Of a DNA stretch of 64,000 nucleotides, positions 40,903 to 59,111 are shown one piece after another. The notes beneath the pieces were generated by a model, which made no database searches, was not told the origin of the DNA, and worked only from the letters and a program-made list of their open reading frames with translations. Made by a program: the position numbers and the translations under genes. Position 1 is the first letter of the stretch, and each line of letters starts with the position of its first letter. Origin of the DNA: Thermococcus siculi (GTDB lineage Archaea > Methanobacteriota_B > Thermococci > Thermococcales > Thermococcaceae); the NCBI RefSeq assembly GCF_002214505.1, contig NZ_CP015103.1, forward strand, positions 620,001-684,000, in the 5' to 3' direction.

Positions 40903-43275
40903 TTATTTCCTTCCACCAACGTCTTTTAGCCTGAACACACCCCTATCCAGAATTTCCCCCTTCATAATGTATGAGTATCTCACAACAGCACTCCCGTTCA
41001 GCTGGTCAGGAAGCACGAACTCTCCCACTCCGCTGACGTCGTAGTTCTTGAAGAACACCCGTGTCCCGTTGTCGAGGAAACCCTCAACCATCAGTCGGGT
41101 ACCCACGGGTTTGGTGAATCTCAGCACTATCTTATCCCCCTCGCGGATCACGGCCACGTTGGGGTGCTCAAACTTGAAAATCTTGATGTATCCCCCATCT
41201 GAATACACGAGGCTGTAATTTGGGGGATAGCTGTCGGTGAACATCAACCGTGCGAGAGTCGTTTCAAAGGATTTCCTGTTCATCAGCACCGCGTAGCCGT
41301 AGTTCAGGTTTATGTATACATATGCATCTGCCTTCTGGGTGCCGGTGATGTTGACCTCCCGGGGGCCGTTGGTTCCCTCCACGTAGGCCTCCACAGGGGA
41401 GAACGCGTTGTTACCTGCGCTTACGAGGATTTTCCACCCTTTCTTTCCTGGTTCCGCGGTTATGGAATAGCCGTTGACCGCAAAGACCAGAGTCTTCCCG
41501 CTGGTCTCTGTTAATGGCATCGGAATCATCGGATAATCCCCCACAGGGACGTTGGCCGTTTTCAGCACTGCCGGGAACTTTCTTACAGTATCATAGGAGA
41601 CAATAACGTAATCAATTCCTCTGGCCATCAGTTCCTTCTCATTCGTCATGTTCAGGTAGTATTTGGCCACGAACTCATCCGGGGCCCCATGTGAGGGGGT
41701 TCCTCTTTTGGAGTAATACATCGTCCAGTACCCCTGATCCCACCACGTCAAAATGATGGCGTTCTCGTTTGAGGCCTCTCTCAGGGTAGCGAGGGCGTTC
41801 TCCCATCCCTCGTTCATGAAAGGCCTCACGTTGATCGTGTTCTGAGTTGCCACCGCGGCCGTTGGGACAATCAGGAGCGCTATTATTGTGGTGGCGATCG
41901 TGGTGGAGAAGTACCTTTTTGAGAGCGTCCTCCCTTCTTTCACAGTATCGAGCAGTTCCCAAACCCCGACTCCCGCAAGGATTGCAACGGCCAGCGAACC
42001 GATGAAAAGAAACCTCGACCATACAAGGATCATAATCAGGCTGGGAACTGCGAATCCCAGGACGATGAAGTCGACCACCTTCACGCGGGAGGGCCTGAAT
42101 CTGAGGAGGAAGGGGGGAAGCACAAATATCAGCGTCCCATAGGATATCCAGACGTCGTGGAATGACGTCCTCCGTGTTTCTGCTATTGCCTCCTCTCCGA
42201 ACCTCTGGAGGAACAGCAGGAAGGCCCCCTTGATCAGGTGGTAGTACCGTATCCCCAGGAAGAGCACAAGGAGGACAAGTATCGATGTGACCACCAATTT
42301 TCCCCTGTAACTTTTAATAAACCTCGATGCTCCAAATAGGATTATTATCCCCAGAATTGCCGCGGGAACGGCGTACTCTAGGTAAACGAGCAGAAACGCA
42401 TCCTTTATGAACCCAAACTGGAGTCCGAGAGCCTTTGCTGCCTCAATTCCATCCGGCCTGTTCCATCCGAACATGCCGTAGCCCAGCCTCGACCCGATGG
42501 TGTTGGCCATCAGCGCCCCTAGAATCGTTGAGACCGTTAATGCGGTTGAGTCGAGGAATGCCCACTCTTTCCTGAGGAGAAACGCACCAATCGCAATGAA
42601 AACTGCGTTTGCAATCAGAAACACGAACATCAGGTAGTACGCGCTCCAGAATGCCGCAGCTGCCCCTGCCGCGAGTCCGGGAATAACGTAGAGGGCCAAC
42701 CGTTTATACTCCCACCCAGCTTTACCCCGGAATTCCACAGCCAGACCTAATCCAAGGAGCGCCAGAGAGTACCAGAACAGAAGGTAGTTGTCGCCCCTGT
42801 AGTAGTTCGTCATGGAGCGGAAGACGTGGCCGAAGCTGATTGCCATGAAGAGCGAGGAAAGCACGGCGACTTCGTCGTTGTAGAGGCTTTTGACTGCAAA
42901 GTACACCGCAATTATTGTTAAGATGCCAACAACGGCGGGGGTTATCTTGAAAGCGGTATCAATCGATACTCCAAAGGGCGAGAGGAGGGCGTGGAGGTAC
43001 GCGGGCGGCATCCAGAATCCCTTGGGGTGAAACTGGTCTATGAGCATTCCCCAGGGGGCGTTGGCGTAGGGGAAGAAATTCACCCACTCTCCCATCATGG
43101 TCGAATACTCCACGTAGGCCGCGTGAAAGTACGTGTCGTAGCCCAGGAGGTACCTGAAACGGAGGGGTATCAGGCGGAGTGCGAGGCCCACGAAAATCAG
43201 GATTGGGAGAAAGCATCCCGTTCTCATGATGCATCCCAGCTTCTTTAGGATTCTTCTGCCGGCACTGGATGACAT
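40903..43275 (-). CDS. aglB: Archaeal oligosaccharyltransferase AglB (STT3 family)
   Basis: 790 residues. About 13 membrane spans fill the first 470 residues. Acidic loop motifs GYDTYFHAAY (near 45) and YRGDNY (near 155) match the metal-binding DxD positions, and the hallmark WWDQGYW (near 510, a WWDxG motif) begins the outer catalytic/binding domain. It transfers lipid-linked glycan to Asn in N-x-S/T. The ATG at 43275 has GAGGGGT upstream, with an internal ATG 16 codons later as alternative. Divergent from the glycosyltransferase genes and close to the sequon-rich 1955-residue protein, its likely substrate. Confidence 0.93.
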   Translation of the reverse strand: MSSSAGRRILKKLGCIMRTGCFLPILIFVGLALRLIPLRFRYLLGYDTYFHAAYVEYSTMMGEWVNFFPYANAPWGMLIDQFHPKGFWMPPAYLHALLSPFGVSIDTAFKITPAVVGILTIIAVYFAVKSLYNDEVAVLSSLFMAISFGHVFRSMTNYYRGDNYLLFWYSLALLGLGLAVEFRGKAGWEYKRLALYVIPGLAAGAAAAFWSAYYLMFVFLIANAVFIAIGAFLLRKEWAFLDSTALTVSTILGALMANTIGSRLGYGMFGWNRPDGIEAAKALGLQFGFIKDAFLLVYLEYAVPAAILGIIILFGASRFIKSYRGKLVVTSILVLLVLFLGIRYYHLIKGAFLLFLQRFGEEAIAETRRTSFHDVWISYGTLIFVLPPFLLRFRPSRVKVVDFIVLGFAVPSLIMILVWSRFLFIGSLAVAILAGVGVWELLDTVKEGRTLSKRYFSTTIATTIIALLIVPTAAVATQNTINVRPFMNEGWENALATLREASNENAIILTWWDQGYWTMYYSKRGTPSHGAPDEFVAKYYLNMTNEKELMARGIDYVIVSYDTVRKFPAVLKTANVPVGDYPMIPMPLTETSGKTLVFAVNGYSITAEPGKKGWKILVSAGNNAFSPVEAYVEGTNGPREVNITGTQKADAYVYINLNYGYAVLMNRKSFETTLARLMFTDSYPPNYSLVYSDGGYIKIFKFEHPNVAVIREGDKIVLRFTKPVGTRLMVEGFLDNGTRVFFKNYDVSGVGEFVLPDQLNGSAVVRYSYIMKGEILDRGVFRLKDVGGRK

Positions 43276-43396: not shown

Positions 43397-44521
43397 ATGA
43401 GGATAGCCTTCATATACGATGCCCTGTATCCGGAGGTCAAGGGCGGTGTTGAGCGCAGGCTCTACGAACTTGGAAGACGTTTGGCCAGAAAACACGAGGT
43501 TCACTGGTACACGTTTGGCTGGTGGGGCGACTCGAAGACGCTTGAGCGGGAGGGCATGGTTCTTCACAACCTTGGGCATCCCCTTGAGCTGTACCGGGGG
43601 AACGTCAGAAACCCCCGGGAGGCCCTAGTTTTCTCCTGGAGGATTCTTCGGCACAAAGTGGGTCAATATGACGTCGTTGACTGTCAGGAGTTCCCGTACC
43701 TCCACGCCTACCCCTCCAAACTAAAGTTCTCTGGGTCGGAGACCTTTGTAATCACCTGGCACGAATACTGGGGCGATTACTGGGAGGAGTACCTGCCCAA
43801 TGGGTCCGGCCTTGGGAAGCTGGCTGAAAGCGGCCTTCTAAAACTGACCGACAATCACCTGGTCGTTTCCAGACACACTCTCGGGCGACTGGTGGAAGTT
43901 AGAAGGGGAAACTTTGGACTCGTGCCGAATGGCATTGATTTCGATTTCATTCGCTCCGTTGATCCTCATCCGGGGCTGGACTACGATTCGGTCTTTGTGG
44001 GGAGACTAATAGGACATAAGAACGTGGAGCTCCTCCTGAGGGCTTTGAGGCTCATCGTTAGGGACGTTCCTTCTTTCAGAATCGGGATAATCGGGGACGG
44101 TCCCCAGCGGGCCGAGCTTGAGACCCTCGCGCGGCGTCTGGGGGTTGGGGACAACGTGGAGTTCCTCGGTTTCCTCCCGCGCTTTGAGGATGTCATATCT
44201 GTGATTAAGTCCTCACGGGTTTTCGCTTTCCCTTCCCTCAGGGAGGGCTTTGGAATCGCCGTCATTGAAGCCAATGCCTCCGGCGTTCCCGCCGTTGTCG
44301 TGAATGCTCCTATGAACGCCTCCGTTGACCTTATAGTGGAGGGAAAGAACGGTTACATCAGCGATGGTTCACCAGAAGACTTCGCGGAGAAACTTTTATT
44401 AGCATGGGAGAACTCCTCGAGGATGAAGCGTCCTTCCCTCTCGATTGCGAAAAAATACGACTGGGATAACATCGCAGATAAGCTTGAGAGGTACTACAAA
44501 GGTGTTGCCGATGGATCCTGA
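43397..44521 (+). CDS. GT4-family glycosyltransferase
   Basis: 374-residue GT-B enzyme. N-terminal MRIAFIYDALYPEVKGGVERR contains the glycine loop of GT4; the C-terminal half has VFVGRLIGHKNVELLL and the ExxxxxxxE motif (REGFGIAVIEANASGVP). No membrane segment; it probably adds a sugar from a nucleotide donor to a lipid-linked glycan on the cytoplasmic face. First gene of a three-gene operon; overlaps the next by 11 bases. Confidence 0.85.
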   Translation: MRIAFIYDALYPEVKGGVERRLYELGRRLARKHEVHWYTFGWWGDSKTLEREGMVLHNLGHPLELYRGNVRNPREALVFSWRILRHKVGQYDVVDCQEFPYLHAYPSKLKFSGSETFVITWHEYWGDYWEEYLPNGSGLGKLAESGLLKLTDNHLVVSRHTLGRLVEVRRGNFGLVPNGIDFDFIRSVDPHPGLDYDSVFVGRLIGHKNVELLLRALRLIVRDVPSFRIGIIGDGPQRAELETLARRLGVGDNVEFLGFLPRFEDVISVIKSSRVFAFPSLREGFGIAVIEANASGVPAVVVNAPMNASVDLIVEGKNGYISDGSPEDFAEKLLLAWENSSRMKRPSLSIAKKYDWDNIADKLERYYKGVADGS

Positions 44522-45629
44522 AGTCACAGTCGTGCTGCCCACAATGAACGAGGAAGAGGCCATCTCGGTGATGCTCCCCCGTATCAAGGACGTTCTGGAG
44601 CGCATGGGGGTCTCGTACGAGATAGTGGTCGTCGACAAGAGCGACGATAGAACGCCCGAGATAGCGAGGAATCTGGGCGCCCGTGTGATACGGCAGGAGG
44701 GGAAAGGGTACGGCGATGCGTACCTGACGGGGTTCAAGCACGCCCGGGGAAAGTTCATCGTCATGATGGATCCAGATGGGAGCTACGATCCGGAGGACAT
44801 CCCAAAGCTCCTCCAGCCCCTGTTTGAGGGCCGCGCCGAGTTCGTCATGGGTACCCGGCTGAAGGGCGAGATGGACAAAGGAGCGATGCCCTGGCTTCAC
44901 AGGCGTATCGGAAATCCCCTTCTCACGTGGGTCCTCAACGTGCTCTTCAAAGCGGGCATAAGCGACGCCCACTGCGGTATGAGGGCCATAAGAAAGGACG
45001 CCCTCGAGAGGCTTCCCCTCAAATGCAAGGGCATGGAGTTCGCTAGCGAGATGGTGATTGAAGCTGCGAAGAAGGGGCTTAAGACCGTTGAGGTTCCCAT
45101 AAAGTATCACCCCAGAATAGGGGAGTCGAAGCTGAGTTCTTTCAAGGATGGCTGGAGGCACCTCCGCCTCATGCTCCTCTACTCACCGTCTTACCTGTTT
45201 CTCCTGCCCGCGGTCATCTTCGTGATTGCTGGAATCTGGTTCATGGGATACGCATACATCCTCAAACCCGAGAGGCTTCACACCCTCATACTGGGGAGTG
45301 CGTTGCTCCTCCTTGGGTTTCAGATACTGGGGTTTGGAATTTCGGCCAAGGTCTACGCCGTCAAGGAGGGCCTTGAGGAGCCTGGCAGGCTGACGAGGTT
45401 CTTCATGAGGTATTCCGTCCTGGAGGAGGGTCTGCTAGTAGGGGGGCTTATGTTCGTCGTGGGGCTTGCCCTGGGTCTGTACATCTTCCTGAAGTGGAGG
45501 GCGAGCGGTTACGGGGCGCTCTTCATGATACGGGAGGCCGTGCTGGTTCTGACCCTCACGACCCTCGGCCTTTCGGTCATCTTCTTCTCCTTCTTCGTCA
45601 GCATCTACATGCTCAAGGGTGAAGATTGA
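44511..45629 (+). CDS. GT2 dolichol-phosphate sugar synthase-like, with C-terminal membrane domain
   Basis: 372 residues. The GT2 domain begins VTVVLPTMNEEE, with DPDGSYD as the metal-binding DxD near residue 86. The second half has about four membrane spans from residue 220. This is the DPM1/GtrB-like arrangement that makes polyprenyl-phosphate mannose or glucose, the donor for GT-C enzymes such as those at 38576 and perhaps 54814. GGTG lies before the ATG at 44511. Overlaps both neighbours. Confidence 0.85.
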   Translation: MDPEVTVVLPTMNEEEAISVMLPRIKDVLERMGVSYEIVVVDKSDDRTPEIARNLGARVIRQEGKGYGDAYLTGFKHARGKFIVMMDPDGSYDPEDIPKLLQPLFEGRAEFVMGTRLKGEMDKGAMPWLHRRIGNPLLTWVLNVLFKAGISDAHCGMRAIRKDALERLPLKCKGMEFASEMVIEAAKKGLKTVEVPIKYHPRIGESKLSSFKDGWRHLRLMLLYSPSYLFLLPAVIFVIAGIWFMGYAYILKPERLHTLILGSALLLLGFQILGFGISAKVYAVKEGLEEPGRLTRFFMRYSVLEEGLLVGGLMFVVGLALGLYIFLKWRASGYGALFMIREAVLVLTLTTLGLSVIFFSFFVSIYMLKGED

Positions 45630-46690
45630 TGGGGAGGGTTCTCGTAGTTTCTCCCTATTTTTATCCCGAGGGAGGGGGGCTGGAGAGGTACGCCTTTTCG
45701 ATGGCCAAGAAGCTTTCGGAGGAACACGACGTTGAGGTTCTCTGCATGACCCGGGGCGAGGAGAGGGTGGATGAGATTGAAGGTATGAGGGTTTACAGGA
45801 TTAAACCTGCCCTAATAGTCTCCAACACCCCGCTCAGCATTAAGTTCGTTCTGAAGACCGCGAAGATGGTGAAGAACCGGGATCTCGTGATAGCCCACAC
45901 GCCGGTTCCCTTTGCAGCCGACGTGGCCGCTTTATTCGCAAAGCTCCGGGGTCTCCCGATTAGGATAGTCTACCACACCGTGGGCCTTGAGAAAGGGGCG
46001 GGTTTACTTGACCTCATAGCGAGGATCTACTCCGCCACTGTTGAGAGGCTGACCCTGAGGGGGGCAGAGATAACCGCTGTTTCTCACGTGGTCTGGGAGT
46101 ATCTGAAGGGGCGCGGCTACAACTCCGAGGTCTCTTATCCCCCCATGAACCTCGACATCGGTTTGAGCGAATCCACGTCACGTGGGAAAGTGATACTCTT
46201 CGTGGGCCAGCTTGGGAGGTATCACCGCTTCAAGAACGTTGGCATGCTCATCCGTGCCTTTGCGGGGGTAGCCCCCCTGTTCCCAGACTGGGAACTCTGG
46301 ATCGTTGGGGAGGGGGATATGAAGAAGGACTACGCTCATCTGACCTCCCGCCTCGGAGTCTCTGAGAGGGTTCGTTTCCTCGGCAGGGTTGATGATCCCA
46401 AAAGGCTAGCGGAGGTTTATTCCTCTGCGGGGATTCTCGTGCTTCCCTCTGCCTTTGAGTCCTTTGGTATGGTGATCCCTGAGGCCCTGAGGTTGGGGAC
46501 CCCCGTGGTGGTCTCCCCCAGTGTGGGTGCCAGAGTGCTGGTAAGCGATGGGAAGAACGGCCTCGTCCTCGGTGGACTCTCCCCAGAGGCCCTCGCAACT
46601 GCCCTCGAACTCCTGCTCGGAAATCAGAAGCTCCTGAGAAAGATGGGCCGAATTGCCGCCTCTTCGGCGGCATCATATGCGTCCCTTTAG
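45629..46690 (+). CDS. GT4-family glycosyltransferase, short C-terminus
   Basis: 353-residue GT-B enzyme with VVSPYFYPEGGGLERYAFSM at the start, LFVGQLGRYHRFKNV at the nucleotide-sugar domain and the ExxxxxxxE motif in AFESFGMVIPEALRLG. Its ATG overlaps the previous TGA by one base. The protein stops abruptly at AASSAASYASL, where GT4 enzymes normally continue with a helix returning to the N-domain, and it overlaps the convergent gene by 18 bases; the end may be truncated. Confidence 0.82.
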   Translation: MGRVLVVSPYFYPEGGGLERYAFSMAKKLSEEHDVEVLCMTRGEERVDEIEGMRVYRIKPALIVSNTPLSIKFVLKTAKMVKNRDLVIAHTPVPFAADVAALFAKLRGLPIRIVYHTVGLEKGAGLLDLIARIYSATVERLTLRGAEITAVSHVVWEYLKGRGYNSEVSYPPMNLDIGLSESTSRGKVILFVGQLGRYHRFKNVGMLIRAFAGVAPLFPDWELWIVGEGDMKKDYAHLTSRLGVSERVRFLGRVDDPKRLAEVYSSAGILVLPSAFESFGMVIPEALRLGTPVVVSPSVGARVLVSDGKNGLVLGGLSPEALATALELLLGNQKLLRKMGRIAASSAASYASL

Positions 46691-48093: not shown

Positions 48094-51000
48094 ATGGATA
48101 GGCGCAGAAAAGCGCGCTTTTTGAGCCTGGTCCTGGCACTGTTTATGTTGTTGGCAGTGGTGCCAGGGTTCACACCAGGCGGAATGAATGCAGTGACTGC
48201 ACAGACGTATCCAACAACCATCAAGATCGTGGGGAATGCCACAAATTGTGGGGCCAAGCTGTTCCAAGGGTTCCCCTACGAGATAGTGATGAACATATCG
48301 TACTTGGATACTTCAGGCAATGTGACTGATATAAGTAGCAACGTTTATGCCCACTTGGATTACTACAACGCCAGCAGTGGATCTTGGATACATGTGTATG
48401 ATACTCCCGATCCTGGATTCTCGGTTCAGCATGGTAACGCCACAATTATCATCAACTCAACATTGAGCCCCGGATTTGTCAGCGATGAGTACAGGGAAAT
48501 CCCACAGGGAATTACAAAAATAAGAGTTACACTCCACGATCCGGTATACAATGTAACCAACAGCACGGAGTTTGATGTGCTCTTCCCGTACATCGTTACA
48601 ACGAACATAACAAGCTCAGTACCGTACTTGAATGGAACCTGGATGAACGACAGGGCCTTTAAGGAGATACCATTCAACCTAACGGTGAACGTTACCTACG
48701 ACTCCGATGCAGTGGCGTGCTTTGGGATCTCAATACCCTCAAACGTGACAGTGGATATAACGATGCCCAACGGTACAGTTCTCTCTGACTTAATGTCCCT
48801 AAGTGGAGGAACCGGTGAGAAAGTCTACACTTACCTCAAGTCCTCGATTCCGGGAACTGGTAACGTGGTGGTTACCGACACGGCCAATGGGCTTGTGGCT
48901 CCTCCGGAGTACTTCCAGGTCTATGACTGGACAATAAACTTTGTCGTCGTCGGCTTCAGCTTGGTAAATCCGCCATATTCGTGGATTCCGTTCAATATAA
49001 CCGGAACAATTAATGCGCTCACCACATTGGGCGGACTTGGACTGTACACACTGGGAGTCAATGACACTCTATCCCTTGAGATACTGGGTACAGGCTACAC
49101 TGGAACTGCAACCATGACAAACGGAACGGCACCATTCAACATGACCGACATAACCCTACCCGCTGGTACATACAACCTCCAGGCCAGCTTGGACAGCTAC
49201 ACCCCGACGACCATCTACGGCTTTAATGTTGCAGAATGGAACATAACCATAACCCCGACCATAAACTGCACCACATGTCCCTCATGCACCGAGTTCTACG
49301 CCGGCGTCAACCAGACCCTTAACATAACCATTGAGTATCCGGTTGAGCCATACAACATTACCTCCATCGCCAACTACAGCATACTCCTAAACGGTATTGA
49401 GGTTTACACCGGAACCATAAACGTCGTCAACAACACGGGCTCGGTGGTTCTCCCCGTTAACTTCCCGGAGAGCGGCACCGTTGAGATACGCGTCTGGGAT
49501 GAGACTTATCACCCCGACTACAACAGCACCACGATACCCGTGTCCGACTGGGACCTCATTGGAGGCTACATTGTTACCCAGTACCCTGGTACCTGGTACG
49601 AGACTTACGATAGTAACTTCTACGTGGGAATACCGGGAGCGCTTAACCTAACGGTTTTATACAACGAGCCCTGTCCGGTTAACTCCACGCTCAACATAAC
49701 AGTGGAACTTCCAAACGGAACGGTTCTCAACTACTACCCGGTTGCAGTCGTAGACAACAACTCGGTCAACTTCACAGTTCCGGAGGAGTTCCTGTTCAGC
49801 GAGCCTGGATATGTCCACGTGACCATAACGGACGAGAGCCTCAACAAGACCGTTACCCTTGATGTCCCGATCAAGGACTGGGGAATCTTCGTCGACGTCT
49901 CACCCGAGGAGCTCGTTGAGAACGAGAGCACCAACGTCAACGTGTTCGTTGTTGAGTCACTGTACTTTGACTGGCCTGGAACCAGGGATGTTAACGTCAC
50001 CTTGGAGCTTCCTGATGGGTACACGGTCACCAAGAACCTCACACTGGAGGCCAACGATGATGTGTACTACGGCCAGGGCGGCTACCAGGGAATAGTGACC
50101 TTCGAGAACGTAACTCCAACAATTCCTGGCCTTGGATGGGTCACAGTCACTGACGTCCTCAGTGGCAAGACTGTCAGGATGCCCGTTGAGGTTAAGGTCC
50201 CCACCGACTACGTTGGAACTGTGGTTGTTGCCACAGTAACCCCCGAGGACTCACCGGTCTACGCCTACATCCCGAACAAGCTGAACATAGACATCAAGTA
50301 CTACGTTAGGGACGCTCAGGGCGGCCTCACTGACGAAGAGCACGACCACGACGCTAGGGTAATAGTCTACGACGCGGACGACATGCACACCCCCATTTAC
50401 AACAGTACCGTCCACGTTCCAAACGGTCACTACATCATGCCTCCAGTGACGGTTCCTGTAAACGGCATCCAGAACATAGTCGTCGAGGTCATAGACCTGG
50501 CTAACAACAGTGTCAGGAGCACTGCTGAAATCCCTGTCTCCCAGTGGAACGTTACCTTTGACTTCGCCACTGACGGCCCTGTCTGGAAGTACGTTGACAA
50601 CACCCTCAACGTTACCGTCCACGTTAACGGCCCAGATAAGGCAGTCAACGTCAGCATCAACGGAGCGCCTGCTGGCACATACAACGACGGTGACGTTATA
50701 CAGGTTAACCTAGTCGATCCGCAGGGAACGCTTACCTTCAACGTCATCGCCACTTACAACGGTCACCAGGTTGGAAGTGACAGCTACACCATAACCCCGG
50801 AGGAGTGGAACGTTACCTTCGACTTTAGCGTTAAAGACCATGCGACTGGAATCCCGGAGCTCTACCAGTGGTTCGACGGTGACCTCATGGGAACGGTTCA
50901 CGTTAACGGTCCGAACGTTCCGGTCAACGTCACTCACGTTACCTGGGCGTGGATGATGGGCACTTACTACGATGGCCAGAACTTCGGATTCGGATGGAGT

Positions 51001-53961
51001 CCGGTGCTTGACCACGACACTTGGGACTTCGTCGCCACCTACAACGGCCACACCGTGGGAACCGCTACCCTCGAGTACTATGGAGAACCGTGGGAGACCG
51101 TTGTCTCAGCTCCGAGCGAGCTCTACTACCTGCCCGATGGCTACACCAACAAGAACGTCGAGATCGGCGTCGACCTTGAGGGCCTCCCGGAGATAATCAC
51201 CGAGGGCTACAACGTCACCATAGAGCTTAACGTCACGCTCCCGAACGGTACCGTCATGATCAAGACCGTTAACGGAACCAACAGCACGGTCTTCGACCTT
51301 GGAGACCTCACCTTCAACGAGAGCGGAACCATAACATACCTTGTTGCTATATACAAGTACGCTTGGGGTAGCTGGAGCATGATCGACAGCGAGAGCGGAA
51401 GCATCCCGATCAAGCTGGCACTCAACGCCAGCATACTTGGAACCTACTACGAGAACATCCCGGTGGACGTTAGCATAAGCGTCGACTCTATCTCTGCCAG
51501 CCCGAACCTTACAATAACGATCGAGGGAACCAACTACACGATCTCCTCCGACCACGATGGACCCCTGGTCATTCCGGACGTCGAACTTCCTGCCGGCAAC
51601 TACACGGTGACCATCCACGACAGCTCGCTTAACGCCACGATAATCAGAACCCTTGAGGTACGCGGATGGGACATCTACGTTACCGTCAACCCCGACGAGA
51701 TAACTGCCGGAAGCGTCTACAACGTTGACTTCACGATCGACCTGAAGGACTACTACGGACAGCCCGTTGCGGTTAACGACAAGCTCAACCTCCTCCTCGA
51801 GTTCAGCGACACCGGCATAATCCCGAGCGGGTTCTACAACCTCACCTACACCATAACTCCCAGCGACATGGGTCACCTGGAGCGCACTCTAAGCGTGTTC
51901 TCACCGGTCGCTGGAACGTTCCAGGTCATCGTCTCGGACAAGTACGGCAAGGTCAACGACACCGAGCAGATACTCGTGGACCAGCCCAACCCGAACGACC
52001 TCACCTACGTGTACGTCAACATCAGGAAGCAGGGTTCACTCAGCCCGCCCGACGAGCCGGTCAAGCTCTACTGGGGTCTTGAGCTTGGCGGAGTCAGGAA
52101 GTACTTCCCGGTCTTCAACGCGACCATCAGCGAGGACTACTCGGAGGCCATGTTCACGCTCTACCCGCGGACCCCGTTCAGCCTCTACGTCATAGCCGCT
52201 CCGCTCAACGTTACCGCCCCGATACTCACAGAGGGCCAGACCTGGGCCCACAAGGTCGTGGTCCAGAACGATACCATCACCACCTACACCAAGAACGTCA
52301 CGGTCACCCCGATGGACGGTGGCTGGGACATCTCGGTCAGCGTTTACAAGGCGACCCTCAACAACGTCACCGTGGACTACTACACCTACAAGCCGCCTAG
52401 CACTCCGGGTGTCATCGAGCTTGAGCCAGGTTCAGCCTCGGTGCAGGGTAACGCCATCTACACCGGCATTGACGTGGAGACCGAACACTCCGAGGACTAC
52501 ATCTTCGGTCCCTACGAGACCTCCAACTCGACCGAGATAACCATCGTGCCAAACGAGCTCACACTCGAGCTCCTCGACAGCACCACGCTCAAGCCCACCC
52601 AGGAGGGCGAGCACTTCACCTTCAAGGCCATGCTCAGCATAACCAATGCAGAGGAGCAGTTCGACGCCCAGTGGACTCCGTTTGAGGGCTGGCTGAGCAG
52701 CATACCGTTCCTCACCGACGACGAGAAGGAGGAGCTTGTCAGCGAGATACTCGACCAGATCGGCGACGTCTCTGCCGTCAACGGACCGGTAGCCAACGAG
52801 ACCCTCGACTTCCACATCGACAACACCGCAATAGCCTACCTCGATCCAACGAACGCCACCACCGATGCCGACGGAAGCGCCACCTTCATGGTGTACACGA
52901 AGGCCACCGGTGACATGACTCCTGAGGAGCTCATGAACCTCATGGGTGCCGTCAAGGCCTGGGCGACCTACGACAGCCTCATCAGCAACGACATCACCGT
53001 CAACTTCGGCGGTGCAGGCTCAATCTCCGGCGATATCACCGACGACAGCGGAATGCAGATTCCGGGTGCCACCGTCGTCGTCAAGATGTGGAACGGTACC
53101 GCATGGGTCAACGCCACCGACTTCGCCGGCAACGTGCTCATGGCCGTGTCAGCCGACGACGGACACTACTCAATAAGCAACGTCCCGGCTGCCGTGGAAG
53201 GCACCAACTACATGGTCGTCGCCACCAAGGGTAACCTCACCGGCTACGCCTATGTCACGGTCTATCCGTTCGCCACATCGACCGCCGACGTCAAGCTCCG
53301 CGGAGTCTCAGAGAACAGCGGGTTCGCGGTCTATCCTGAGAGGGTCGACAACGCCGAGACGGTCTACTTCGTCTTCAACAACCTCGGAACGCCCGACGCG
53401 TTCTCGGCCAGCCAGTACCTGAGCCGCACCATACCCGCGGACGTCAGGACGAAGAGCGTCCTCGCCAGCGAGTTCGACATGGACCAGGTTACAGCCAACG
53501 ACGTCGTCATCTCAGTCGGTGGACCGCTGGTCAACCCGGTCACCGCCGCCTACGAGGACATGGCGCCGGTTCACATGGCCGTCAACGGAAGCACCATAAC
53601 CATAGTCATGCCTGAGGGCAACCTCACATGGACCGCTCCGAAGCCGTGGTGGAACGTCACGGAGGGCTACTTCGTCATCCAGATGTTCGAAGACGACAGC
53701 GGCGCCCTCGTCGTGACCATCTACGGTACCGACGCCGACAGCACCGCCGCCGGAGCCTACTACTTCCTCACTGAGGTCTATCCGAACATCGACGACTACA
53801 ACGGCGTTAGCTACCTCGTCGGACAGTGGGTCGACACCGAGCCCGATGCGGACATACCGCTTCCAGGAGAAAGCCAGGGCGACACCAGCGGCTTCAGCGC
53901 GAACGACGAGATCTGCATAATCGCCCCGGCCGCTCTGGCGACCTGTGCGGTCCCGATCTGA
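48094..53961 (+). CDS. Giant sequon-rich surface (S-layer-like) glycoprotein
   Basis: 1955 residues, secreted: a basic N-terminus, hydrophobic stretch and Ala cleavage region by about residue 37. The body is a string of Ig-like beta repeats of about 100 residues joined by linkers with a conserved Trp (DWTINF, EWNITI, DWDLIG, DWGIFV, QWNVTF, EWNVTF, GWDIYV at residues 279, 382, 486, 596, 818, 905, 1192). A carboxypeptidase-regulatory-like domain follows near 1640-1740, then the C-terminal domain shared with three other proteins (about 1745-1955). Dozens of N-x-S/T sequons mark it as an AglB substrate. The first kilobase has more A/T-rich codons than the rest. It lacks the CGP-type tail and any terminal membrane segment. 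GGTGAAGAG precedes the ATG. Confidence 0.88.
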   Translation: MDRRRKARFLSLVLALFMLLAVVPGFTPGGMNAVTAQTYPTTIKIVGNATNCGAKLFQGFPYEIVMNISYLDTSGNVTDISSNVYAHLDYYNASSGSWIHVYDTPDPGFSVQHGNATIIINSTLSPGFVSDEYREIPQGITKIRVTLHDPVYNVTNSTEFDVLFPYIVTTNITSSVPYLNGTWMNDRAFKEIPFNLTVNVTYDSDAVACFGISIPSNVTVDITMPNGTVLSDLMSLSGGTGEKVYTYLKSSIPGTGNVVVTDTANGLVAPPEYFQVYDWTINFVVVGFSLVNPPYSWIPFNITGTINALTTLGGLGLYTLGVNDTLSLEILGTGYTGTATMTNGTAPFNMTDITLPAGTYNLQASLDSYTPTTIYGFNVAEWNITITPTINCTTCPSCTEFYAGVNQTLNITIEYPVEPYNITSIANYSILLNGIEVYTGTINVVNNTGSVVLPVNFPESGTVEIRVWDETYHPDYNSTTIPVSDWDLIGGYIVTQYPGTWYETYDSNFYVGIPGALNLTVLYNEPCPVNSTLNITVELPNGTVLNYYPVAVVDNNSVNFTVPEEFLFSEPGYVHVTITDESLNKTVTLDVPIKDWGIFVDVSPEELVENESTNVNVFVVESLYFDWPGTRDVNVTLELPDGYTVTKNLTLEANDDVYYGQGGYQGIVTFENVTPTIPGLGWVTVTDVLSGKTVRMPVEVKVPTDYVGTVVVATVTPEDSPVYAYIPNKLNIDIKYYVRDAQGGLTDEEHDHDARVIVYDADDMHTPIYNSTVHVPNGHYIMPPVTVPVNGIQNIVVEVIDLANNSVRSTAEIPVSQWNVTFDFATDGPVWKYVDNTLNVTVHVNGPDKAVNVSINGAPAGTYNDGDVIQVNLVDPQGTLTFNVIATYNGHQVGSDSYTITPEEWNVTFDFSVKDHATGIPELYQWFDGDLMGTVHVNGPNVPVNVTHVTWAWMMGTYYDGQNFGFGWSPVLDHDTWDFVATYNGHTVGTATLEYYGEPWETVVSAPSELYYLPDGYTNKNVEIGVDLEGLPEIITEGYNVTIELNVTLPNGTVMIKTVNGTNSTVFDLGDLTFNESGTITYLVAIYKYAWGSWSMIDSESGSIPIKLALNASILGTYYENIPVDVSISVDSISASPNLTITIEGTNYTISSDHDGPLVIPDVELPAGNYTVTIHDSSLNATIIRTLEVRGWDIYVTVNPDEITAGSVYNVDFTIDLKDYYGQPVAVNDKLNLLLEFSDTGIIPSGFYNLTYTITPSDMGHLERTLSVFSPVAGTFQVIVSDKYGKVNDTEQILVDQPNPNDLTYVYVNIRKQGSLSPPDEPVKLYWGLELGGVRKYFPVFNATISEDYSEAMFTLYPRTPFSLYVIAAPLNVTAPILTEGQTWAHKVVVQNDTITTYTKNVTVTPMDGGWDISVSVYKATLNNVTVDYYTYKPPSTPGVIELEPGSASVQGNAIYTGIDVETEHSEDYIFGPYETSNSTEITIVPNELTLELLDSTTLKPTQEGEHFTFKAMLSITNAEEQFDAQWTPFEGWLSSIPFLTDDEKEELVSEILDQIGDVSAVNGPVANETLDFHIDNTAIAYLDPTNATTDADGSATFMVYTKATGDMTPEELMNLMGAVKAWATYDSLISNDITVNFGGAGSISGDITDDSGMQIPGATVVVKMWNGTAWVNATDFAGNVLMAVSADDGHYSISNVPAAVEGTNYMVVATKGNLTGYAYVTVYPFATSTADVKLRGVSENSGFAVYPERVDNAETVYFVFNNLGTPDAFSASQYLSRTIPADVRTKSVLASEFDMDQVTANDVVISVGGPLVNPVTAAYEDMAPVHMAVNGSTITIVMPEGNLTWTAPKPWWNVTEGYFVIQMFEDDSGALVVTIYGTDADSTAAGAYYFLTEVYPNIDDYNGVSYLVGQWVDTEPDADIPLPGESQGDTSGFSANDEICIIAPAALATCAVPI

Positions 53962-54813: not shown

Positions 54814-57027
54814 ATGGAATGGATCGGTGTAATCCTCCCCTTTCTTGCGATCCTTGCGGCGGTTTACATTGTGTCCAGCGGTGAGGCCGGGCGCAAAATA
54901 TCCCTGCTCGTTCTCTCTGTTCTTTCCGCGGGTGTTGTCCTCTACGTGAGACTGAGTTTCGGGAGGTACTTCACGACCATCGATGAGTCCTACTACGTCT
55001 CCCTTCTTGGCGATCCCCGGTGGTATCGAACCTCAATAGTGTCCGGCTACGTTACCCCGTTTCTCCTTCATGTATTTAGGTCACTGTTTGCCACTCCTGT
55101 CGATGAGGTCGTGTGGTATTCGGCGATAGCTGCCGTGGTCTACATCCTGTTAATATTCTGGGTCTATAAGGCCGTTGGACTCTCTTCCAGACACTCGCTG
55201 ATTTCCCTGCTGATCCTTCTGATGACCCCCCTCTACATCTGGTCCGTCATCCAGGTTAGGCCCCAGCAGGCCGGTTTGCTCGTTGGTCTTCTTATAATTG
55301 CCCTGTTTGTACGTTTAAAGCCGGGAAAGGCCCTTTTCTTTGGTGGAAGTGCCCTCTACGTTCTCCTTGTCTTTTCCCATGTCCTGTCATTCATAGTCTA
55401 CTCCCTTCTCCTCGTCTCCTACCTCTCCGTTCTGGTACTCTTCGGGGAGGAGATGGCGTACCGTAAAAAATACCTCGTTCTTGCGGGTTCAGTAATCCTG
55501 TCATGGATCGTTTTCCTGCTTTTCCCCTACTCGCGGCCCATACTCAAGAACATGACGTGGCTTTTCAACAATCTTTTCCACGTGGGCCTGTCTGTGAAAG
55601 CCTTCTCAGCACTCTCGGCCGGAATGCTGGTGATACTCCTGCTCGGGTGGTATCTGATCCTCATCCATATCCCGGGACGTCTCACGGGAACCCTGTCCGC
55701 AATAGTGGGGTCTATGGAGAAAGTTGAGGATGCCTACCGCAGGGTGGATCATAAATTGTTCGCGCTGTTGGCCCTTATGCTGGTATTTGGCGTTCTCTAC
55801 GTCCAGTTCATGCTCGGGGCTCAGGTTTACGCCCGTGTCTATCAGGGTTCTCCTCTGGCCCTGCTCCTCTTTCAGATGGGAAACCTGGTCTTTGCCCTCC
55901 TGTACCTGAGGGGTGTTTTCCTGAGCACCATCAGAGGGCGCTTCGGTGACCTGGAACTTCTCTCCCTCCTGATGATCCCGATAGCCGGTGCCTTTCTCCT
56001 CGTATCTTTCTTCATGCCCCGCGGAAACGGCATCTGGGGTTTCCACAACTGGCTCATCAGGGCCCTGCAGTACTTCGTGCCTCTAGCTGCACCTCTCGTT
56101 GGGCGGCAGATAATGGAAGACGTAGATTCAGCCAATATTGAATGGGAGAGGGTCCTCGTTTCTGTTTTCCTGGCCTTAATAATCATGATCAGTGTCCTCA
56201 ACACGGCGAGAATCCCGGGGGTGTACGATTACGATGCCGTTTGGAGCCACGAGCTGGTAGAACTCTGCGGAGACTTTGGGGGGATATACGTCCCCCGGGG
56301 TGAGTCCTCACTATATTCCAGCTTCGTCGAGAACAACCTCCTCAAGGCCTGCGGAAACGGCCTCTCACTGGACGAACGGGGCCCTCTGGTGGTTTCATCT
56401 GATGGCTTCTACATCAGTCCCACCCGGTACTCCACCTTAACCATAGGGGAGTTCGGAGGGCTTGCCTCGGATTACGCCGGCCGGCTTGTGGTAATGTCCG
56501 GGGGTGATGCCTTCAGAAGCTCCTACGTGGTGTCCCTGTTACCCGGTTCCGTCTTCCTCCCTCTGGATCCTGACGATTGCCCCCTTGGGAAGCCCTGGCT
56601 GAGTCGTCCCGTGTTGCTGATTGGTGGCCCGGTTTCGAACCCCTGCACCCGCGAGCTGGAGAAGGTGGGTGCCCTGAAGGTTGGCCTGGGGAACAATTAC
56701 GTTACCACGCTCCACTCCGCGTATTCAATCCCTGCTCCGGAGAAGTGGTGGGACGTTAGGGAGGGCCTTTTTGTGATTCATTCCCTACGTTACAAAGGCG
56801 TGCCCATCTTACTGGTGGAGGGCACCAACCTCGATGCCACCCTGGCCGGGGTTTACTACCTCATGAACGCCGTCTACCCCAGGATGGGGTACTACGGCAG
56901 CGTTCACTACATCGTTGGTAAGTGGGAGGAGACGGACGGAATGGTGATCGATGCCGCAAAGGGCGTCCCCACGGATACTAACGGCTTCAGTCCAGGTGAC
57001 AGGATAACCGTGTTAGAGACCGGATAG
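54814..57027 (+). CDS. Polytopic GT-C-like membrane protein with C-terminal surface domain
   Basis: 737 residues. About 13 membrane spans fill the first 470 residues. The first outer loop has TIDESYYVSLLGDPRWY, an acidic pair placed as in PMT/ArnT GT-C glycosyltransferases. The outside C-terminal part (about 595-737) carries IGGPVSN, KWWDVREGLFVI, EGTNLDATLAGVYYLMN and DTNGFSPGD, a divergent copy of the domain ending the 1955-residue surface protein. It is translationally linked to the preceding gene. A surface-layer-specific glycosyltransferase or a membrane docking partner are both plausible. Confidence 0.72.
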   Translation: MEWIGVILPFLAILAAVYIVSSGEAGRKISLLVLSVLSAGVVLYVRLSFGRYFTTIDESYYVSLLGDPRWYRTSIVSGYVTPFLLHVFRSLFATPVDEVVWYSAIAAVVYILLIFWVYKAVGLSSRHSLISLLILLMTPLYIWSVIQVRPQQAGLLVGLLIIALFVRLKPGKALFFGGSALYVLLVFSHVLSFIVYSLLLVSYLSVLVLFGEEMAYRKKYLVLAGSVILSWIVFLLFPYSRPILKNMTWLFNNLFHVGLSVKAFSALSAGMLVILLLGWYLILIHIPGRLTGTLSAIVGSMEKVEDAYRRVDHKLFALLALMLVFGVLYVQFMLGAQVYARVYQGSPLALLLFQMGNLVFALLYLRGVFLSTIRGRFGDLELLSLLMIPIAGAFLLVSFFMPRGNGIWGFHNWLIRALQYFVPLAAPLVGRQIMEDVDSANIEWERVLVSVFLALIIMISVLNTARIPGVYDYDAVWSHELVELCGDFGGIYVPRGESSLYSSFVENNLLKACGNGLSLDERGPLVVSSDGFYISPTRYSTLTIGEFGGLASDYAGRLVVMSGGDAFRSSYVVSLLPGSVFLPLDPDDCPLGKPWLSRPVLLIGGPVSNPCTRELEKVGALKVGLGNNYVTTLHSAYSIPAPEKWWDVREGLFVIHSLRYKGVPILLVEGTNLDATLAGVYYLMNAVYPRMGYYGSVHYIVGKWEETDGMVIDAAKGVPTDTNGFSPGDRITVLETG

Positions 57028-57080
57028 AATTCTTGAAGTTATTTCCGGAAGTTGGCCAAAAATTTTGTAGAAGATAAAAG

Positions 57081-57097
57081 CAAACCTTTATATAGTT
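57081..57097 (+). promoter_or_regulatory. Promoter of the predicted non-coding RNA
   Basis: CAAACCTTTATATAG is a strong BRE/TATA element with no forward coding gene downstream. The predicted start, about 57116, coincides with the 5' end of the structured RNA described next. Confidence 0.65.
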
Positions 57098-57116
57098 AAA
57101 GACCTAGAGGTATCTG

Positions 57117-57272
57117 AGGAGCACTGTAAGGGAAGACTGAAGTGAAAGCGCCTCCTGACACGGACTGGAACTGGATCGTGATTCATCGTTCGTGAAGGCG
57201 GTGGGTTGCATTTAACGGCGAAAGCCTGTGGCGGGTGGAACTTCATTCCCGCCTTCCTGATGCAGTGCCCCT
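57117..57272 (+). ncRNA. Predicted structured non-coding RNA, about 155 nt
   Basis: The ends pair: GCACTG (57121-57126) with CAGTGC (57263-57268), and GGAAG (57131-57135) with CTTCC (57253-57257). Inside are a 7-bp stem (57159-57165 with 57188-57194), then an asymmetric TCCTGA/AA loop resembling a kink-turn, then CGCC/GGCG (57149-57152 with 57197-57200). There is also a GGC-GAAA-GCC tetraloop hairpin (57217-57226) and GGCGGG/CCCGCC (57230-57235 with 57248-57253). A strong TATA box is positioned to start it at the closing stem. It converges with the nucleotidyltransferase gene. It could be an H/ACA-like guide or a Thermococcales-specific RNA; I do not recognise it. Confidence 0.6.
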
Positions 57273-57289
57273 CACTATTCTGTTATCCT

Positions 57290-58285
57290 TCACTCGCCCC
57301 TCTGTATCTTGGCGTGCCCACCGACCAGGCTCTTCCTAAGCTCCAGGTTCCTTATCTCGCACTTCTCGTCTATTATGGAGCGCCATATCGTTGAGTTCCT
57401 TATCACGGTTTTCCTAAATATTATGGAGTCGCTTATATCGGAGTTCTCTATGACGCACTCCTCACCTATGTAGGCGTAGGGGCCTATCATTGACCTCCCC
57501 AGAATCTTTGCACCCCTCTTTATCACGACCGGCGGGATTATCTTGGCGTAAGGACTTATCTGTATCTCCTCGACGTGGCTCTCCTTGAGGAGGGTTCTCA
57601 GGGCCTCGAGGTAGCTGTCGGCTGAGCCTATATCGTACCAGTACTCGGAGAAGCGGTAGGCCCTTATCTCCTCACCCTTCTCAAGGAGCCACTGCAGGAA
57701 GTAGCCCGGTGAATCGCGGTTTCCGTTCGAGAGGTAGTCGTCTATGCGCTCCATGACCTCCCGTGGGAAGACGTAGACGCCGGTACTGACCAGAGTGGAG
57801 CGGGGCTGTGGCGGCTTCTCCTCGAAGGATATTACCCTGTCCCCCTCGAGGACGACCACTCCATACCGCCTGGCCAGTTCTGGGTCTCCAACGTCATAGA
57901 CGGCTATGAGGGTTCTCCCGTCGTACGCCCTCAGGAAGTCCCCCAGGGAGAATGAGAACAGGTTGTCACCGGCGATGACGAGGTAATCATCCAGCCCCAG
58001 CTCGTCGACGGCCTTCTTCATGGCCCCTATGGTTCCTAGCTTCTCTTCCTCGTGGAGCGTGTCCTCCACTATCAATCCAATGCCGTGCTTCTCCGCGTAG
58101 GGCCTGAACTGGGCCTCGAAAAAGCGGTTGGTTGAGATGTAAGTCTCGATTTCAAGCTCCTTAACCTTCTCGATTATGTAGTCGAGTATGACCCTGTCCC
58201 CGACTGGGAGAAGGGCCTTGGGGTTGTCCTTGGTTATCGGCCAGAGCCTCGTCGCGTAGCCGCCGGCCATTATGAGGGCCTTCAT
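57290..58285 (-). CDS. Sugar-phosphate nucleotidyltransferase
   Basis: 331 residues. N-terminal MKALIMAGGYATRLWPITKDNPKALLP is the nucleotide-binding loop of NTP-sugar transferases, which make NDP-sugars from sugar 1-phosphates. The C-terminal 80 residues form left-handed beta-helix hexapeptide repeats (YAYIGEECVIENSDISDSII). Glucose-1-phosphate or mannose-1-phosphate are both possible. Likely donor supply for the surface glycosyltransferases. It starts 1 base after the HepT gene stop. Confidence 0.85.
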   Translation of the reverse strand: MKALIMAGGYATRLWPITKDNPKALLPVGDRVILDYIIEKVKELEIETYISTNRFFEAQFRPYAEKHGIGLIVEDTLHEEEKLGTIGAMKKAVDELGLDDYLVIAGDNLFSFSLGDFLRAYDGRTLIAVYDVGDPELARRYGVVVLEGDRVISFEEKPPQPRSTLVSTGVYVFPREVMERIDDYLSNGNRDSPGYFLQWLLEKGEEIRAYRFSEYWYDIGSADSYLEALRTLLKESHVEEIQISPYAKIIPPVVIKRGAKILGRSMIGPYAYIGEECVIENSDISDSIIFRKTVIRNSTIWRSIIDEKCEIRNLELRKSLVGGHAKIQRGE

Positions 58286-58714
58286 TCAATCCACCTCTCG
58301 GAGTTTTTTACGGAGGTTGTATAAAAACTCTTCAATGTCACCAACGTTTTCGGTAATGATCCTGTATATCATCCTATCGTCCACGTCCCAGTATATGTGA
58401 ACGAGCCGGTTTCTGAAACGGGCCATCAGGATCAAACGACGTGCCAGCTCCTTGTCTATGATGTCGTTCTCTTCGAGAACCCTAAAGGAGTCCGCGTAGT
58501 CTCTTGGCAGTCTGAGCTTGTTTTTGGATATTAGGTGGTACGCAATGTCTATGCAGGCCTCGATGGCGACCAGAAGGTTGTACTTGGCACTTGATACGTA
58601 GTGCTTGTTTTTCAGGAACTCTTCCTCATCGAGTCCTGCCAGTTCGTGGATGTTCTGGAGGGCGTTCTGGGCCTCTGCCATTAGTCTGGTCATTCTCTCT
58701 ATGTCATATTCCAA
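58286..58714 (-). CDS. hepT: HepT-like (DUF86) RNase toxin
   Basis: 142 residues, helical, with the HEPN-type catalytic motif RFRNRLVHIYWDVD (Rx4-6HxY) near residue 101. HepT is an RNase toxin neutralised when MntA adds AMP to its Tyr. The start is TTG 58714 behind GGAGGGAGG, overlapping the mntA stop by 11 bases; the longer frame to 58783 starts inside mntA. Complete, unlike the VapC at 20629. Confidence 0.85.
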   Translation of the reverse strand: MEYDIERMTRLMAEAQNALQNIHELAGLDEEEFLKNKHYVSSAKYNLLVAIEACIDIAYHLISKNKLRLPRDYADSFRVLEENDIIDKELARRLILMARFRNRLVHIYWDVDDRMIYRIITENVGDIEEFLYNLRKKLREVD

Positions 58715-59111
58715 GTGCCTCCCTCCTGTAAAGTTCGAGGTAATATGATTGGTCATGGTACTCGGCCATCGTTCTCTCCTCAAAGCGGCACCTCGTCTTT
58801 TCGTCCTTCGAGAAGAGAAGCTCCCCTCCTATTGCCCGGAATCTGAAGGTAAGGGGGGCATCGTTTAGGACTCTGATGTCCACTGGAAAACCGATGAGCC
58901 TCGTGAGTTCTTCTTCCAGATCCTCCTCGTAAAACCTCCCTATGTTGCCGTTCACATAGACTGCGACGTCAATGTCTCTGAACGGACCGTCCGTTAGGAA
59001 GGAACCGTGGAGGTAGGCGAACAGAATCTCCTTCCTCTTGATGAGAGCCTTCCGGAGCTTTTCTTTTATTGCCTCCTTTTTGTCCCCGGGGAGCCGATAG
59101 ATTTCCATCAT
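58704..59111 (-). CDS. mntA: MntA-like nucleotidyltransferase antitoxin
   Basis: 135 residues with the minimal nucleotidyltransferase motif GSFLTDGPFRDIDVAVYV (GSFx7-10DxD) near residue 36. In characterised pairs this protein AMPylates HepT to silence it. ATG at 59111 or the adjacent ATG at 59108 are both possible. Precedes hepT with overlap. Confidence 0.85.
   Translation of the reverse strand: MMEIYRLPGDKKEAIKEKLRKALIKRKEILFAYLHGSFLTDGPFRDIDVAVYVNGNIGRFYEEDLEEELTRLIGFPVDIRVLNDAPLTFRFRAIGGELLFSKDEKTRCRFEERTMAEYHDQSYYLELYRREALGI

Follow-up and report, generated by a model that had tools for sequence, protein, structure and literature searches.

The window analysed here, a stretch of 64,000 nt from Thermococcus siculi (GCF_002214505.1, NZ_CP015103.1, positions 620,001–684,000 of the forward strand), holds a TATA box that is followed by no gene on the same strand, shortly ahead of a convergent sugar nucleotidyltransferase gene. 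This raises the question of whether the box belongs to a gene for a structured RNA and, if so, what such an RNA might do. The original prediction, made from the sequence alone, had proposed a structured RNA with its own promoter. As described below, the RNA structure and the promoter spacing were borne out by comparison with relatives, whereas a proposed kink-turn and the particular GNRA hairpin that had been singled out were not.

The predicted RNA gene and its promoter

A covariance model made from 26 copies of the element (with E ≤ 0.01 as the threshold for genome counts) marked the RNA of the window at 57115–57275 on the plus strand with 108 bits (E 4.3e-25 in the window), compared with up to 163 bits for other copies. 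Its parts and neighbours are listed in Table 1; the stop codon of the convergent nucleotidyltransferase gene is located 15 bases past the RNA end. The plus strand contains no open reading frame of note at this place, in agreement with the predicted lack of coding content, and RNA lengths over the copies range from 156 to 182 nt, with all three residues modulo 3 represented and none of them preferred.

The octamer TTTATATA at 57087–57094 is the only one of its kind on both strands of the window (0.53 expected under a first-order Markov model) and is 28 bases ahead of the RNA start marked by the covariance model. The agreement between TATA box and RNA start, on which the original prediction leaned, recurs throughout the family: the octamer starts 28 (12 copies) or 29 (31 copies) bases before the RNA in 43 of the 45 copies, the exceptions being L166 and L153. 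Alignments of the upstream regions also revealed AAAAGCAAA upstream of the TATA box in most copies that come from the window's genus. Past the RNA end, T makes up 54% and pyrimidines 75% of the first 10 nt in the set of 45 copies, and thirty extracted copies could be aligned from about 75 bases upstream through the T-rich end. The fixed promoter distance, together with the lack of a conserved reading frame as judged by the lengths, is as expected of a structured non-coding RNA gene. A scan for bacterial promoters and terminators, which is ill-suited to archaea, gave a single terminator-like site, on the other strand and at chance level.

Table 1. Features of the RNA locus and its surroundings (window coordinates)
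Feature	Position	Strand	Basis
Structured non-coding RNA	57115–57275	+	Covariance model match; start predicted near 57115–57117
BRE-like element AAAAGCAAACC, 5' of TATA box	57076–57086	+	Sequence and upstream-region alignments
TATA box TTTATATA	57087–57094	+	Octamer count and spacing over copies
Closing stem P1, 5' arm	57115–57135	+	Covariation alignments
Closing stem P1, 3' arm	57253–57274	+	Covariation alignments
Position of conserved GNRA hairpin P2 (UGAAGC GAAA GCUUCA in relatives)	57138–57153	+	Degenerate in window copy
Central arm P3 (three stacked helices in relatives)	57159–57230	+	Sub-alignments
GC-rich hairpin P4 with conserved loop motif UGGAACUUCA	57230–57253	+	Fold and alignments
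T-rich tail TATTCT, likely termination region	57276–57281	+	Base composition over 45 copies
Convergent sugar nucleotidyltransferase (NTP_transferase and hexapeptide repeats), neighbour outside the RNA	57290–58285	-	Pfam on a relative
Upstream neighbour, membrane protein of 737 aa without Pfam family	54814–57027	+	ORF list, Pfam
AglB-like oligosaccharyltransferase, window's own glycan region	40903–43275	-	50% identity to AglB of L146, residues 12–783; weak Pfam STT3 core below cut-off

With regard to folding, only 1 of 200 dinucleotide shuffles matched or surpassed the fold of the stretch itself (z −2.97), but when the flanks were included the z value was only −1.61 and 10 of 200 shuffles were equally good. 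Since folding alone is modest evidence, the case depends on the relatives.

Structure and compensating base changes

The closing stem P1 was paired in 94.9% of the cells over 42 copies, with two-sided changes in 9 of its 17 pairs. When P1 and P2 were taken together over the 42 distinct copies, 93.3% of the cells were paired, as opposed to 34.7–53.6% when the partners were slid by one to three columns; the two-sided changes numbered 78 against 4–44 for slid partners, and the covariation score was 0.371 against 0.073–0.177. All of 500 column shuffles stayed below the observed values of pairing percentage, two-sided cells and covariation score, while the count of further pair types was unexceptional (reached by 56 of the 500). 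Compensating base changes, the hallmark of a structured RNA, are thus present beyond both the column-shuffle and the slid-partner controls, and the covariation of paired arms that had been named as a test is there in the relatives. The closing stem and the GC-rich hairpin, both of them already seen in the window sequence, are conserved among relatives.

Similar results were obtained for the full structure within two subfamilies. In a 23-copy sub-alignment that includes the window, 88.3% of the cells were paired (40–47% when slid) with both-side changes in 25 of 58 pairs, and in the 16 copies of the other subfamily 90.8% were paired (33–49% when slid) with both-side changes in 31 of 67 pairs. 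For the covariation counts the structure came from single members, and this gives the unslid version an advantage. Much of the change falls in the central arm P3, where two-sided changes affect 7 of the 9 pairs of helix 3 and 8 of the 14 pairs of helix 5 in the first subfamily, and 19 of 32 pairs in the second. P2 and P4 behave differently: neither has a single two-sided change in the 23-copy subfamily (0 of 6 pairs each), their sequence being conserved. By computation, the copies are homologous and share a structure maintained by compensating change, in addition to the promoter spacing given above and the linkage to glycan genes given below.

The conserved GNRA hairpin of the family is UGAAGC-GAAA-GCUUCA, that is, a different one from the hairpin GGC-GAAA-GCC (57217–57226) of the original prediction; the latter does exist in the window sequence, but it is not conserved, and relatives pair this segment within the central arm. 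The suggested kink-turn found no support, as the stem of the bulged P2 was seen by eye to have no GA on its 3' strand. The P2 motif GAAGCGAAAGCTTC occurs 34 times in the 94 family genomes, and 31 of these occurrences are inside the RNA, which argues against P2 being a protein site shared across the genome. The others are found in G030, G048 and G088; at these sites the covariance model matched the motif alone in G030 and G088, and nothing in G048. Conserved unpaired runs (P4 loop, junction GAC) are short, the longest being about six nucleotides by inspection, and this makes a simple antisense regulator less likely. In the minimum-energy folds of L142 7909–8075, L149 7915–8078, L157 8003–8164 and L168–L172, the 3' strand of P2 is paired with the 5' strand of P4, and it is conceivable, from these modelled folds, that such alternative pairing could be a switch.

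The window copy itself departs from the consensus. It retains 17 of 20 consensus pairs in P1, 7 of 9 in P3a, 2 of 3 in P3b, 10 of 14 in P3c and 6 of 6 in P4, but only 3 of 6 in P2, so that the otherwise nearly invariant P2 hairpin is lost. The minimum of its unconstrained fold, to which the GGC-GAAA-GCC hairpin belongs, is 14.6 kcal/mol lower than the energy obtained when the consensus fold is imposed. With P2 broken, the window copy may be decaying or losing its function. In the tree it pairs with the copy of G027, which has no TATA box, and the lineage of these two may be losing the RNA.

Distribution and repeated loss

A nucleotide search of 94 family genomes gave long matches in several of them, and in many more genomes there were two separate matches, one to the promoter with the 5' arm and one to the 3' arm. 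The covariance model placed the RNA in 41 of the 94 Thermococcaceae genomes and in all six genera, a count that includes one remnant (G022); among the good genomes 37 of 74 had it, i.e. half were without it. No match was found in a wider search of the phylum covering 21 further genomes (total 41 of 115), nor did the RNA model match two Archaeoglobales genomes that have a related nucleotidyltransferase. Most genomes have one copy only, and tandem copies are found in G026, G038 and G040. The tandem second copies (L148 8142–8298, L145 8173–8329 and L142 8233–8388) are located about 160 bases upstream of the first and form a separate branch of the family.

In G022 only the 3' part of the RNA remains, and the same applies to G060, where this part sits between the nucleotidyltransferase and AglB genes. 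These remnants and the promoterless copy of G027 indicate that the RNA is dispensable, and computation shows that it has been lost repeatedly in the family; the remnants point the same way as the state of the window copy. One genome that lacks the RNA but has both AglB and the nucleotidyltransferase is presumably that of T. kodakarensis. In the tree, drawn without support values, the Pyrococcus-type copy of G009 and the copy of G046 are placed outside their own genus.

Foreign sources were considered as well. A virus origin was rejected, as a single IMG/VR contig with the P2 motif (L240) gave 15.2 bits inside a phage protein gene, which we take to be a chance match, and so was a plasmid origin, as the plasmid search yielded only a 42-base match in Priestia. 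That the element is a mobile repeat of the MITE type, with terminal inverted repeats that mimic the closing stem, appears exceedingly improbable. Its inverted-repeat ends of about 20 bp, its length of about 165 bp, its one to two copies per genome and the tandem arrangement in three genomes would suit such a repeat, but the conserved promoter is not part of the inverted repeat and keeps a constant distance from it, the copy number is low, the inner arm covaries, the placement is non-random and no target duplications were seen by eye in the flanks of the aligned copies.

Association with glycan islands

Glycosylation-type clusters were found within 8 kb of 38 of the 41 RNA loci, whereas 5 of 40 windows of 16 kb, placed at random in 20 of these genomes, contained one. 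The test is biased, because the clusters themselves were picked from the surroundings of the RNA and because the relatedness of the genomes raises the count; the claim leans on the size of the difference. Within this distance, AglB was present at 19 RNA loci and ATP-sulfurylase at 23, against none of the random windows for either. L201, one of the five random hits, is part of the same island as the RNA of G014, from which its start is about 5 kb away. Conversely, L170, L171 and L173 have no glycosylation-type gene within 8 kb. By Pfam, the neighbouring clusters include nucleotidyltransferase, epimerase/dehydratase, ATP-sulfurylase, phosphodiesterase, TauE and UDP-sugar dehydrogenase, and a second set comprises glycosyltransferases and flippase. 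The name AglB is based on STT3-core matches below the cut-off (21.8 and 21.7 bits) and on a WWD-type motif recognised by eye, which we take to be a mark of AglB.

In the window, an AglB-like gene, two glycosyltransferase genes (44445–46690) and a gene for a 1955-aa protein are found upstream of the RNA; another AglB-like gene is located 9.5 kb past the right end of the window. The 1955-aa protein of this glycan region (48094–53961, plus strand) has a carboxypeptidase-regulatory-like domain and a weak match, below cut-off, to an S-layer outer domain. Between the sugar nucleotidyltransferase and the epimerase genes, a HepT-like (113 bits) and an MNT-type nucleotidyltransferase (Polbeta, 64 bits) gene form a pair (58286–59111, minus strand), which is a probable toxin-antitoxin system. 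The AglB-like gene beside the RNA of G014 (G014:C1:185558–187851) is split into parts matching query residues 17–630 and 635–777, and may, judging from the sequence, be broken or frameshifted.

At 34 of the 41 loci, the next open reading frame after the RNA runs on the opposite strand. This arrangement, and the proximity of the convergent stop codon in the window, could suggest a cis element, i.e. an antisense RNA or a bidirectional terminator for the convergent nucleotidyltransferase gene. We consider this very improbable: the convergent gene differs between genomes and comes from many unrelated clusters (0, 1, 7, 20, 27, 34, 48, 62 and others), which disfavours cis action on it, the RNA stops short of it, and at L152 and L160 what comes after the RNA is instead a same-strand glycosyltransferase gene. 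On the upstream side, AglB is divergent and just upstream of the RNA at 11 of the 41 loci.

Two genomes have the RNA at both ends of an island. In each, a pair of direct copies, spanning 27.8 kb in G042 and 22 kb in G039, brackets glycosyltransferases, a flippase, sulfation genes and AglB. The two copies of G039 differ from each other. Those of G042 (L152 7928–8087 and L153 7925–8084) share all 160 bases but have unlike flanks, and the TATA box of one is damaged; as read from this identity and the differing flanks, they appear to have undergone a recent exchange between the two. One explanation of such layouts would be that the gene acts at the DNA level as an island boundary, providing homology for the exchange or loss of glycan islands, with the RNA being secondary. 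The copies of G009 and G046 that fall outside their own genus in the tree (support values not shown) would also fit. Nevertheless, we find this quite unlikely, as selection on the RNA is needed to explain both the fixed promoter spacing and the compensating changes of P1 and P3, and most genomes have a single copy.

A further alternative, unlikely but deserving more weight than a passing mention, is a housekeeping or otherwise general structured RNA, such as an RNP scaffold, for which the glycan setting would be inherited synteny or a tolerant insertion site without a role in glycosylation. This would account for the RNA being absent from half of the genomes with glycan genes, for the wide variation of the immediate convergent neighbour and for the three loci that have no glycosylation-type gene nearby. 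On the other hand, the neighbours shift while the glycan setting persists (38 of 41 against 5 of 40), the second copies in G042 and G039 stand at the opposite end of the same island, and absence from half of the good genomes would be unexpected for a housekeeping RNA. AglB is present in 72 and the nucleotidyltransferase in 85 of the 94 family genomes, many of them without the RNA, so the RNA is accessory and not essential for glycosylation.

Proposed function

The reading we prefer, with a probability of roughly 0.55, is that the element is a stand-alone gene of an undescribed glycan-island family, whose product is a protein-bound RNA acting in trans in the service of the island, most likely as its regulator. 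The gene, with its own BRE/TATA promoter and T-rich end, would give rise to an RNA of about 160 nt (156–182 nt in the family), built from the closing stem P1 of about 20 bp, the GNRA hairpin P2, the long central arm P3 and the conserved-loop hairpin P4. P2 and P4 are conserved in sequence and not in pairing alone, and would therefore be the recognition sites, while P1 and P3 covary freely and would be the scaffold. That the gene is transcribed, that protein is bound via P2 and P4 and that the role is regulatory we infer. The family resides in surface-glycan islands, with their AglB, sugar-nucleotide and sulfate-activation genes, on which it might act.

A more far-reaching proposal, which we put forward as speculative and on balance doubtful, is that of a new archaeal RNA class for surface-glycan islands: a protein-bound four-helix RNA at the island edges that would control AglB and sulfation genes, and whose gene would also provide homology for island swaps between strains. 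To our knowledge, few archaeal RNA families besides guide RNAs have covariation support, and we know of none tied to protein glycosylation. Control of the AglB island by the RNA, if real, would give access to the means by which archaea change their surface coat. The hosts of the RNA seem to include T. onnurineus, T. barophilus and T. sibiricus, cultured species with published transcriptome data or genetics. In the genome that is presumably T. onnurineus NA1 (G026), the two copies are at 1723921–1724084 and 1724241–1724397 on the minus strand, and in the one that is presumably T. barophilus MP the copy is at G086:C1:1843491–1843662. The RNA is directly testable in cultured hosts, and the family is ready for an Rfam proposal.

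Comparison with known RNAs

Archaeal box H/ACA and C/D guide RNAs are small, stable and structured, and are encoded by genes of their own in comparable genomes. The new RNA differs from both. Box C/D guides were rejected since the C box RUGAUGA (RTGATGA) is found in 0 of 45 copies, and box H/ACA guides since ACA is found in the 3-nt end plus 8-nt tail of only 1 of 45. The comparison with Rfam that had been suggested at the outset (hgc/ssc and H/ACA families) left the Hgc, Ssc, H/ACA and C/D families all unmatched: Rfam 15 gave no match in the window at gathering thresholds, and the best match at loose thresholds within 56900–57500 was sR43 with 12.1 bits of the 45 required (E 2.1). At 12 loci with relatives there were 14 weak Rfam matches, none of them at the place and on the strand of the RNA. 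A scan for tRNA and tmRNA found none.

The SscA/sRk33 and Hgc RNAs of Thermococcales are likewise orphan structured intergenic RNAs. According to a study of P. abyssi, the basal stem of sRk33 covaries and its apical stem is conserved in sequence (PMC3124441). The new RNA differs from these in having no Rfam match to the Hgc/Ssc models (HgcC/E/F/G, SscA), and in its four-helix form of 156–182 nt, its patchy distribution and its tie to glycan islands. The same study describes sRk48, sRk49 and sRk52 as repetitive-locus RNAs of 130–220 nt, some with their own promoters, that recur across thermococcal genomes (PMC3124441, Table 1), and also connects some RNAs with OrfB elements (PMC3124441). In size, in having (for some of them) their own promoters and in recurring across thermococcal genomes, sRk48, sRk49 and sRk52 as described there resemble the new RNA, whose model, however, matches only G009 among nine g3 (Pyrococcus-type) genomes. 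One of the g3 genomes without a match is presumably that of P. abyssi. As to the OrfB-linked RNAs, the new RNA adjoins a TnpB-like gene, named by eye and facing the RNA, in L150 only.

The portions considered of PMC5316973, PMC4247193 and PMC3124441 do not describe this family; the supplementary ncRNA tables for T. onnurineus and T. kodakarensis may list it as an unnamed transcript. The RNA appears to represent an undescribed Thermococcaceae family of orphan structured RNA genes with an unusual genomic tie, possibly already present as an unnamed entry in an RNA-seq supplement.

A different kind of likeness is offered by JUMPstart/ops-type leaders, which are RNA or DNA elements at the edge of surface polysaccharide gene clusters. 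At L152 and L160 the new RNA similarly precedes a glycosyltransferase gene on its own strand, whereas at most loci no gene in the same direction comes after it, and unlike such leaders it has its own closing stem and T-rich end.
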